Below, one piece after another: positions 1 through 35,966 of a DNA stretch of 41,630 bases. Position 1 is the stretch's first letter. Every line of letters begins with the position of its first letter. The notes under the pieces were generated by a model. The model was not told where the DNA came from, did no database searches, and worked only from the letters and a program-made list of their open reading frames with translations. Both the position numbers and the translations under genes were made by a program. The stretch lies in IMG/VR virus record IMGVR_UViG_3300046507_000895, positions 1 through 41,630 of that record. One strand, 5' to 3'. This DNA comes from a virus.

Positions 1-660
1 ATGTGTAACCGCGCACGCGCACCAGGCGATGCGGATTTCCTCTTCTCGCAGTTCCGCCTGAACTGGGCGACGCCGCGGCCGATGGACAACAGGTTCAATC
101 CCGCCGAGCTCGTCCCGAAGTCGCGCGCTCACGTCATCCGGGAGGATGAACGCGGCAGAGGCGTCGACATCATGGGCTGGGACGTGCTGAGTGGTGCCGC
201 GGCCTGGCCGATGACGAACGTCCGCAATCTTCGCCTACCGCAGTGGAAAGCGCTCGCGAGCGATCCCGAGAAACGCTGCCTGATCCCCGTCTCGGAATTC
301 GCGGAATGGACGCCGGGTCCGATCGATCTCGGCGACGGCAAGAAGCCGATCAAGGGTGAGATGTGGTTTGCTGTGTCGGACCAGCCCGTGTTCGCGATTG
401 CAGGCTTCTGGCAAGAGATCGTCGGTGAACGCTTCTTCGCCATGGTGACGTGTGACGCGAACGAAATGGTCGCGCCGATCCATCCGAAGGCAATGGTGAC
501 GATCGTCGATCCAGAGCATTACGACCGCTGGCTAACCTGCGGTTACGACGAGGCCCTGACCCTGCAGCGCCCGTACGCCGCCAAGCGGATGACGGTGCGC
601 GGGCCGGACTTCCCGACCCGCGGCGTCCGAGACGCTAGGCCGCCTCGAGGTCTAGCGTAA
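1..660 (+). CDS. SRAP-family protein (SOS response-associated peptidase, YedK/HMCES-like)
   Basis: 219 residues, within the usual SRAP size range. Members of this family bind abasic sites in single-stranded DNA and form a covalent thiazolidine link through Cys2, shielding the lesion. The expected residues are present: Met-Cys at the start (Cys2), Asn73 in a TNVRN segment, Glu102 in the FAEW segment after RCLIP, and His161 in IHPKAM. The second-position motif is MCNR rather than the common MCGR. The window begins at this ATG, so its promoter is not visible. Its 3' end overlaps by 26 nt the 3' end of the opposing gene at 635-1015, which has a LexA-boxed promoter. SRAP genes are often carried by phages. 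The family call is from recognisable motifs; a role in protecting phage DNA is inference. Confidence 0.87.
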   Translation: MCNRARAPGDADFLFSQFRLNWATPRPMDNRFNPAELVPKSRAHVIREDERGRGVDIMGWDVLSGAAAWPMTNVRNLRLPQWKALASDPEKRCLIPVSEFAEWTPGPIDLGDGKKPIKGEMWFAVSDQPVFAIAGFWQEIVGERFFAMVTCDANEMVAPIHPKAMVTIVDPEHYDRWLTCGYDEALTLQRPYAAKRMTVRGPDFPTRGVRDARPPRGLA

Positions 661-1015
661 GCTCCGTCCCGCGGACGCGACCGTCCTTCACGCGATCGAG
701 GACCATCTTGACGCGATGCGGATCTTCGCCGGCGAATTGATATTCCTGGGCGCCGACCAGCAGGTCATCGGAACCACGCCAGAGCAGGATCAGAGGCGCT
801 TCGTCCTGCCAGAGCTCGACATGGCGCTCGAACACGAGATAGCGGCCGACGATCGCGTTGTTCCGATAGACGGCACCATCGCGCAGTGTGATGACCCTGT
901 TGATGGCCATCGGCTCGCCCGCTTCCAGCAGCAGCCATTGCCCGGCCATTGCCTCGGCATCGTAGCCGCGCATACCTGCTACAGTCTTCATGATATCGTC
1001 GCGCAACGTCGCCAT
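635..1015 (-). CDS. Hypothetical protein, SOS-regulated
   Basis: 126 residues with no recognised domain. It is soluble, acidic toward the end (ELTLDLEAA) and rich in short alternating hydrophobic stretches (VITLRDGAVYR, YLVFERHVELW), which suggests a small beta-rich fold. The start at 1015 is chosen because an AGGAAGG ribosome site lies 9 nt upstream; an ATG at 1024 would sit on top of that site. Upstream is a promoter with a LexA box in its spacer (1050-1078), so expression should rise with DNA damage. It converges on the SRAP gene with a 26-nt overlap. The function is unknown; the regulation is the best clue, pointing to DNA-damage response or induction. Confidence 0.62.
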   Translation of the reverse strand: MATLRDDIMKTVAGMRGYDAEAMAGQWLLLEAGEPMAINRVITLRDGAVYRNNAIVGRYLVFERHVELWQDEAPLILLWRGSDDLLVGAQEYQFAGEDPHRVKMVLDRVKDGRVRGTELTLDLEAA

Positions 1016-1049
1016 CGCCTGCATCCTTCCTGCGAATCGGGGGAGCGCC

Positions 1050-1078
1050 GATATACGATGTTCTCTTTTCGTTCGCAA
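1050..1078 (-). promoter_or_regulatory. Sigma-70-like promoter for the 635-1015 gene
   Basis: Reading leftward, the -35 element is TTGCGA (1073-1078), followed by a 17-nt spacer and a -10 element TATATC (1050-1055). The transcript would start about 25-30 nt upstream of the AGGAAGG ribosome site. The LexA box at 1060-1074 fills the spacer and overlaps the -35 element. Confidence 0.65.
1060..1074. promoter_or_regulatory. LexA (SOS) box, GTTC-N7-GTTC
   Basis: GTTCTCTTTTCGTTC matches exactly the direct-repeat LexA site GTTC-N7-GTTC known from alphaproteobacteria. It lies between the divergent genes at 635-1015 and 1098-1553, inside the promoter spacer of the leftward gene. It is 24 nt upstream of the rightward start and could also influence that gene. 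Confidence 0.75.
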
Positions 1079-1097
1079 ACCGCGTATGATCCGGTGC

Positions 1098-1553
1098 ATG
1101 CGATTCGACCGCGATTTAATGATCTTCAAAGGCCTGTGTGCGCTCAGCGAATATGCGGACGCGGCATATCAGACGCCGCTCAAGCCCACGTTCGGCCTCC
1201 GGTTCGCGCTGGCGTTCCTCTACAGCCAGAGCAATGGCGAGGTCAGCGCCTTCACCGACTTCTGGAACGCGGTGCAGGACCCGCAAGAGGGGGCGTATCA
1301 TCCTGATCGCGGCCAGTATCAGCGGGCGACCGATGCCAGGACGGCGCTCAACGGCATCATGAACGCGATGCCACAGTGGAAGTGCCCGGGCGTGCCGCAT
1401 CGCATGATCAACGCCGCGCGATCGTTGGGCAATGCCGATCAGGTGTTTCGCGAGGCACGCGAGGAAGAGAAAAAGCGCCTTGCCGAATGGGAAGCGCAAG
1501 AACGGGCGCGACGTGAGGCGCAACGCAAGAGCCGGGATTGCGGCTATCTTTAG
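1098..1553 (+). CDS. Hypothetical protein
   Basis: 151 residues, not recognised. The first two thirds read as a compact helical domain (DLMIFKGLCALSEYAD, then FWNAVQDPQEGAYHPDRGQYQRATDARTALNGIM). The last 40 residues are a highly charged helix (EAREEEKKRLAEWEAQERARREAQRK). The start at 1098 is the second of two nearby in-frame ATGs (the other is at 1086) and no strong ribosome site decides between them. It is divergent from the SOS-controlled gene across an 82-nt gap holding the LexA box, so it may be damage-responsive too. Confidence 0.55.
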   Translation: MRFDRDLMIFKGLCALSEYADAAYQTPLKPTFGLRFALAFLYSQSNGEVSAFTDFWNAVQDPQEGAYHPDRGQYQRATDARTALNGIMNAMPQWKCPGVPHRMINAARSLGNADQVFREAREEEKKRLAEWEAQERARREAQRKSRDCGYL

Positions 1554-34985: not shown

Positions 34986-35049
34986 TTACGATAATCGAAA
35001 CTCCCAATCCAGCAAAAAGTTACGATGATCGTAATTGCGATAATCGTAT
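34986..35049. promoter_or_regulatory. Three repressor operators between cro and cI
   Basis: Site 1 TTACGATAATCGAAA (34986-35000), site 2 TTACGATGATCGTAA (35020-35034, perfect dyad around a central G), site 3 TTGCGATAATCGTAT (35035-35049). Consensus TTACGATNATCGTAA. Sites 2 and 3 are adjacent; centres of 1 and 2 are 34 bp apart. Site 1 is 10 nt upstream of the Cro-like start. Site 3 ends 20 nt before the cI start used here and overlaps the alternative ATG at 35048. Confidence 0.8.
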
Positions 35050-35068
35050 GGCGGTTGTTGAAGGAGTT

Positions 35069-35638
35069 ATGGACCTCGACGACATCCGCGAACGCATGAA
35101 AGCCTTGGGTTACAAGCAGGTCGATCTGGTCGCGCTGCTCGACTCCACGCCGGGCAAGGTGTCGTTGTCGCTCAGTGGCCAGCGTCGCTTCACGGTCGCC
35201 GAGATGGATCTGATACGGTCATGGCTTGGCGATAATTCGTCGCTCAATGGCGGGCCGGTGCGGTCTATTCCGATTATCGGTCAGGTTGCCGCTGGCGCTT
35301 GGCAAGAGGCTGTTCAAAACGCCTCGCATACCATCCCGGCTCCCGCCGACACGGTCCCGAAACGAGCGTTTGGACTGCGCGTTCAGGGCGACTCGATGGA
35401 CCTCGTTGTGCCGGACGGAGGCACGGTGATTGTTGATCCTGACGACAAGGCCCTGTTTCCGAAGAGCTATTACGTCATCCTCAACGCAGGAGGCGAAGCG
35501 ACGTTCAAACAGTTCCTCGCTGACCCTGCGCGCCTTGCTCCTTGCTCAAGCAATCCCGCGTACAAGGATATCATGATGGGGAGCGGAGAGGCATTCACTG
35601 TCGTCGGACGCGTGATCTGGCAAGCGTCGCCGCTTTAA
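35069..35638 (+). CDS. S24/LexA-type prophage repressor (CI-like)
   Basis: 189 residues. The N-terminal helix-turn-helix is IRERMKALGYKQVDLVALLDSTPGKVSLSLSG. The C-terminal S24 peptidase domain has the cleavage Ala75-Gly76 in QVAAGAW, the nucleophile Ser109 in VQGDSMD and the general base Lys147 in ATFKQFL. All parts for RecA-stimulated self-cleavage are present, so DNA damage should relieve repression. The start at 35069 has AAGGAG only 2 nt away; ATG 35048 would add 7 residues. Operators lie on both sides of the gene. Confidence 0.88.
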   Translation: MDLDDIRERMKALGYKQVDLVALLDSTPGKVSLSLSGQRRFTVAEMDLIRSWLGDNSSLNGGPVRSIPIIGQVAAGAWQEAVQNASHTIPAPADTVPKRAFGLRVQGDSMDLVVPDGGTVIVDPDDKALFPKSYYVILNAGGEATFKQFLADPARLAPCSSNPAYKDIMMGSGEAFTVVGRVIWQASPL

Positions 35639-35947
35639 TCACGGCATCATTTCCTGGGTGACCGGCTCGTCATACTGCTCGATCCCGCCCGGGACAGTAA
35701 CGAAGAACCGGCGATAAAGCGGGTCGATCGAGCCAAGGTCGCGCGCGATCAGGTCGCGGATCACGTCATCACCTTTGTCTCGCCATGGCCCGACGGGCCG
35801 CCCGAAGCATGTCGCCCTATACCACTTCCGATATCGATCCACCTTGCGACTCGCCTCCCGCTTCCTACTGAAATCGTGGAACATAACTAGAACGGCCTGC
35901 AAGCCAGTTTCTTGGTAAATTACGATCTTCGTAAATTCCTGTTGCAC
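35639..35947 (-). CDS. Hypothetical protein convergent with cI
   Basis: 102 residues from GTG 35947 (an ATG at 35884 would shorten it by 21). It is rich in Arg/Lys and Asp (FSRKREASRKVDRYRKWYRATCFGRPVGPWRDKGDDVIRDLIARDLG) and ends with EMMP. Its stop touches that of cI (adjacent, tail to tail). One operator lies inside its first codons and one just upstream, so it should be off in the lysogen. Unknown function. Confidence 0.6.
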   Translation of the reverse strand: MQQEFTKIVIYQETGLQAVLVMFHDFSRKREASRKVDRYRKWYRATCFGRPVGPWRDKGDDVIRDLIARDLGSIDPLYRRFFVTVPGGIEQYDEPVTQEMMP

Positions 35948-35966
35948 AATCTTTCGATTATCGTAA
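35920..35966. promoter_or_regulatory. Two further repressor operators before the rightward operon
   Basis: TTACGATCTTCGTAA (35920-35934) and TTTCGATTATCGTAA (35952-35966), each one mismatch from TTACGATNATCGTAA, with centres 32 bp apart. A -35-like TTGCAC (35942-35947) lies between them; no clear -10 is seen. They are placed to repress the rightward operon that begins at 35998 and the leftward gene at 35639-35947. Confidence 0.75.

Follow-up and report, generated by a model that had tools for sequence, protein, structure and literature searches.

What does a predicted host LexA operator control when it lies inside a prophage, between two divergent genes, far from the phage's own repressor? 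The window analysed here, 41,630 nt of IMG/VR virus record IMGVR_UViG_3300046507_000895 (positions 1 to 41,630 of that record), raises this question through an exact GTTC-N7-GTTC site at 1060–1074. A sequence-only reading had placed this site in the promoter TTGCGA-17-TATATC of the 635–1015 gene, here called P0001, and had proposed that host LexA controls that gene directly. Site and promoter both lie where they had been put, the site on the + strand (Table 1), but P0002, which diverges from P0001 and starts at 1098 or 1086 on the + strand, had been overlooked, and the single-gene view of the locus is not supported as stated. We consider it very probable that 1060–1074 is a functional host LexA operator shared by two accessory genes that diverge from it in a sphingomonad prophage, and that DNA damage would release P0002 and probably P0001 from its control.

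Table 1. Positions of the genes, predicted LexA boxes and putative promoter elements in the window
Feature	Position	Strand	Basis or remark
SRAP (YedK/HMCES-type) gene	1–660	+	PF02586, E=1.2e-17, residues 1–199; phrog_1599; convergent with P0001
P0001, 126 aa	635–1015	-	One relative (L003); divergent from P0002; probable co-target
Putative -10 (TATATC) of P0001 promoter	1050–1055	-	Sequence; identical in L003
Predicted LexA operator GTTC-N7-GTTC, GTTCTCTTTTCGTTC	1060–1074	+	Exact match; half-sites invariant in L003
Putative -35 (TTGCGA) of P0001 promoter	1073–1078	-	Sequence; identical in L003; overlaps 2 bp of the box
Putative -10 (TATGAT) of P0002 promoter, or ATG start at 1086 of a leaderless transcript	1084–1089	+	Sequence; TATGGT in L003; ambiguous
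P0002, 151 aa	1098–1553	+	Main conserved target of the box; alternative in-frame start at 1086
Phage S24 repressor	35069–35638	+	Likely operators at 34986–35966
Small undescribed gene, stop at 35639	35639 to about 35830	-	Tail to tail with the S24 repressor gene
Second predicted LexA box, perfect	35879–35893	-	Upstream of the small gene

The 82-bp gap between P0001 and P0002 (1016–1097) forms a divergent promoter region. Within it, the two hexamers directed at P0001 are separated by 17 nt. The box, whose own spacer reads TCTTTTC, overlaps this promoter, as had been noted, without filling its spacer exactly: it occupies 13 of the 17 spacer bases and two bases of the -35 element. The P0001 promoter matches the sigma-70 consensus at 8 of 12 positions, so that a promoter scan with a threshold of 9 of 12, under which it falls, reported none here. 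In the rightward direction, the hexamers of the putative P0002 promoter are poor. Two GTTC-N7-GTTC sites occur in the window against 1.2 expected by chance, and 32 of 100 shuffles contain two or more. The count alone is not significant; the box at 1060–1074 owes its significance to conservation.

GTTC-N7-GTTC is the LexA motif of Alphaproteobacteria (PMC8565304). In three Sphingomonas genomes, the window's host not being among them, it occurs as tandem copies upstream of lexA and as a single copy upstream of recA and of a RadA-like gene, which identifies the motif as the host LexA box. Genome-wide it outnumbers its reversed control two- to threefold (119 versus 43, and 92 versus 41). In S. gellani, a box that differs from that of the window by one spacer base precedes a gene that we call PdeM-like by resemblance. 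Together, these sequence comparisons support the assignment of 1060–1074 as a host-type (alphaproteobacterial) LexA box in the accessory region of a prophage. Separately, a box of sequence GTTCCTACTCTGTTC (locus L057) occurs in two Sphingomonas genomes; its S. gellani copy precedes the gene of a 464-aa protein that by eye is HD-domain-like.

The same gene cassette is present in a second phage. A scan of viral contigs with P0002 found IMGVR_UViG_3300046660_000285 (L003), which keeps SRAP, P0001 and P0002 in the same order with protein identities of 93, 64 and 83%, respectively. DNA similarity (79% identity) extends from window position 1 to 1553, ending exactly after P0002; outside the cassette, in the stretch read, the two contigs share almost nothing. 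In L003 the cassette is bounded by an endolysin gene and a Lar-like gene, and it thus appears to behave as an inserted accessory cassette, or moron. Purifying selection acts on each gene of the cassette, with dN/dS values of 0.05 for SRAP, 0.20 for P0001 and 0.13 for P0002; identity and dN/dS together mark P0001 as a real gene. Between the two phages, both GTTC halves and the -35 and -10 elements of the P0001 promoter are unchanged, whereas four of the seven bases of the box spacer differ.

The first gene of the cassette lies tail to tail with P0001, as had been described, the two 3′ ends overlapping. SRAP domains are distinguished by Cys2 together with conserved Asn, Arg, Glu and His residues; the corresponding C2, N73, R75, E102 and H161 are present here and unchanged in L003. 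We considered SRAP as a direct target of the box and rejected it, as none of 44 SRAP loci has a box in the 300 bp upstream. The condition that raises lexA and recA in Sphingopyxis granuli also raises SRAP genes, by 8–10 fold (PMC6472365).

Judged from its sequences, the family of P0002 is mobile and restricted in lineage. It comprises small helical proteins whose genes mostly follow a predicted LexA box and often lie beside SRAP. Profile searches detected the family in 34 of 295 Sphingomonas genomes and, when the profile was broadened, in 41 of 398 Sphingomonadaceae genomes. A first scan of genome contigs with P0002 gave no match, and the family appeared in none of 385 genomes of a class-level sample, a weak result as this sample held no known positive. 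Each of two Sphingomonas plasmids encodes a relative, one 48% and the other 37% identical; in both, a perfect box lies 27 bp ahead of the start, and neither P0001 nor SRAP was found nearby.

Three observations tie the box to this family. First, a perfect GTTC-N7-GTTC lies at −60 to +5 in 30 of 61 P0002-family loci from Sphingomonadaceae, in every case in the same (+) orientation, and one further locus (L100) would join them if its start were corrected. Other spacings from N0 to N15 gave 0–1 such loci, as did permuted tetramers, and random 80-mers gave 0.32%. Second, within 900 bp upstream a box is found in 48 of the 61 loci, compared with 0–5 in controls; 12 lack a box over this distance, and the weakest family matches may be false. 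Third, clustering at 50% identity yields 36 clusters; a near box is present in 17, and counting boxes at operon distance as well raises this to 28, so the result does not come from a few close copies counted repeatedly. Because the box tracks P0002 across its family, and P0001 has no such family, P0002 is the best-supported target of the predicted operator. Since most P0002 relatives share it, the box marks an undescribed family of genes that are probably damage-induced.

Other small genes occupy the same neighbourhoods. A YozE-like gene that has a LexA box of its own, frequently GTTCTTGCAATGTTC, is found in many Sphingomonas loci near SRAP (for example L125:5550-5786, L012:5712-5912 and L026:8834-9052) and is apparently another SOS-box gene. 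YozE-like and HTH genes can separate a more distant box from the P0002 relative; HTH-like small genes stand in this position at L125:5798-6010, L105:1278-1472 and L087:1065-1265.

P0002 gave no credible match in Pfam, NCBIfam, PHROGs or PADLOC. Its AlphaFold2 model is all helical with a mean pLDDT of 90.5, and fold searches with this model returned generic helical bundles only: the best Foldseek E value was 1.6, and the best VIA-align match, an alpha-catenin domain, had Z 8.8 and an rmsd of 3.1 over 93 residues, which the tool rates as common for helical bundles. We assign no family from these matches. An SRAP gene is present within about 1.5 kb in at least 13 of the other 59 P0002-family loci; by a rough estimate from the few SRAP copies per 4-Mb genome, well below 1 would be expected by chance. 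This excess makes a damage-response role beside SRAP our leading guess, and P0002 is likeliest to be an accessory damage-response protein carried as a phage moron, acting in repair or as a brake on replication or division.

P0001 offers less to compare. Its sole known relative is the L003 copy, first reached through P0002; no relatives were found in viral contigs (by a single-protein scan), phages, plasmids or the 295 Sphingomonas genomes. The protein has no match by sequence in the PDB, and its predicted structure, with a mean pLDDT of 45, is unusable. Upstream of this only homologue of the 126-residue protein the same box is present (n = 1), as the initial proposal would have it. Co-repression of P0001 through the shared divergent operator is probable because its -35 and -10 elements are conserved in that single relative, that is, in one sequence pair.

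In the model that we favour, LexA bound at 1060–1074 in an undamaged lysogen would lie over the spacer of the P0001 promoter and over the DNA immediately before the P0002 start, so that RNA polymerase would be blocked whether it read left or right. Once DNA is damaged, cleavage of LexA stimulated by RecA would free P0002 rightward and probably also P0001 leftward. Release would come early and would be independent of the phage's own repressor. Within this model we infer LexA binding, repression, co-control of P0001 and activity of the encoded proteins.

The phage's own control region lies elsewhere in the window. Five close copies of TTACGATNATCGTAA (0–2 mismatches) surround the S24 repressor gene and are likely its operators, and none was found near 1050. 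Because repressor and operators are far from 1060–1074, LexA control there would be separate from phage immunity, in agreement with what had been proposed. The S24 repressor may itself self-cleave, as by eye it has apparent Ala-Gly, Ser and Lys cleavage residues.

The same region holds the second LexA box, upstream of a small gene with relatives in 25 of 295 Sphingomonas genomes. For this box, a chance origin was entertained first and then dropped, as a perfect box is conserved upstream of the gene in 12 of the 16 loci read (window included), 11 of them in the orientation of the gene, with 0–1 in controls that used other spacings or permuted motifs. In 12 of 15 relatives the gene is likewise tail to tail with a repressor gene, and the repressors are 49–56% identical. 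Several loci also have operator-like palindromes roughly 35–40 bp further upstream; the sequence of the palindrome varies among relatives, as expected of different immunities, while the LexA box remains constant. From this arrangement, the promoter looks as if it is under both the phage repressor and host LexA. The small gene may encode an antirepressor; alternatively, its transcript may act against the repressor gene from the 3′ side, for which the LexA-controlled oop RNA of lambda provides a parallel.

How do other accounts of the box at 1060–1074 compare with a shared operator? The strongest holds that it controls P0002 only, with P0001 merely back to back and driven by a constitutive or other promoter. 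That the box follows P0002 through the family without P0001, and that the P0001 promoter falls below the scan threshold, both speak for this account, which we nevertheless regard as rather doubtful given that the P0001 hexamers flank the box at ideal spacing and survive in L003 despite the changes in the box spacer. P0002 could instead be a LexA-controlled antirepressor that triggers prophage induction, comparable to Tum of phage 186 or GfoA of Gifsy-1. A small gene with a LexA box outside the immunity region does recall the Gifsy antirepressors (PMC3121763), but the possible self-cleavage of the S24 repressor, the location of P0002 relatives on plasmids and at loci where no repressor was noted close by, and the presence of a better candidate in the small gene under the second box, tail to tail with the repressor gene, make this role improbable. 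The original proposal, in which P0001 is the main or sole target, draws on the plausible leftward promoter that the box overlaps. Control of P0001 stands as a plausible consequence of a shared operator, on one conserved -35/-10 pair, but as the principal target P0001 is very unlikely: this account takes no notice of P0002, in whose family the box stands at the start, and P0001 has no supporting family. Finally, a chance match to a short motif expected about once per window is scarcely credible when position, orientation and spacing recur in 30 of 61 family promoters while controls give 0–1.

Control of this kind is already known. None of the libraries searched contains the P0002 family. As in the alphaproteobacterial LexA regulon, the motif is placed over putative promoters and kept upstream of homologues (near the start in 30 of 61 cases for P0002, and in 1 of 1 for P0001); what differs is that neither protein matches a family in those libraries and that the site lies inside a prophage, between a divergent pair. 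Among enterobacterial prophages, LexA controls Tum of 186, AntC of N15 and GfoA/GftA of Gifsy (PMC3121763). P0002 resembles these in lying outside the immunity region of its phage and having an operator for host LexA, here a predicted one. By contrast, the LexA motif there is a different one, no sequence relation is shown, the P0002 family also resides on plasmids and chromosomes, and antirepressor activity is not favoured for P0002. SRAP genes have been described beside SOS-regulated genes and in temperate phages (PMC3765255), and here too SRAP adjoins predicted SOS-box genes in a temperate phage; in those neighbourhoods it accompanies translesion polymerases, Ku or ligase, whereas here it accompanies an unrelated small helical family.

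These results extend the predicted SOS response of a large family of environmental bacteria by one gene family, show phages and plasmids carrying it, and point to SRAP as its likely functional partner. The second, apparently dual-control promoter suggests a route by which prophages of this group may couple the lysis–lysogeny switch to host LexA as well as to self-cleavage of the repressor. More broadly, and with slightly more doubt than belief, we suggest that sphingomonad mobile elements may share a private, undescribed SOS extension, in which P0002-type, YozE-like and HTH genes repeatedly lie under LexA boxes beside SRAP, and that in this prophage the small gene convergent with the repressor may also be under dual control, giving the prophage two LexA-gated outputs.

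Downstream of P0002, two facing copies of GTAACCTCACGTTAC (1566–1580 and 1600–1614) lie between it and a small HTH gene (about 1807–2034), and are probably operators of this adjacent regulator.
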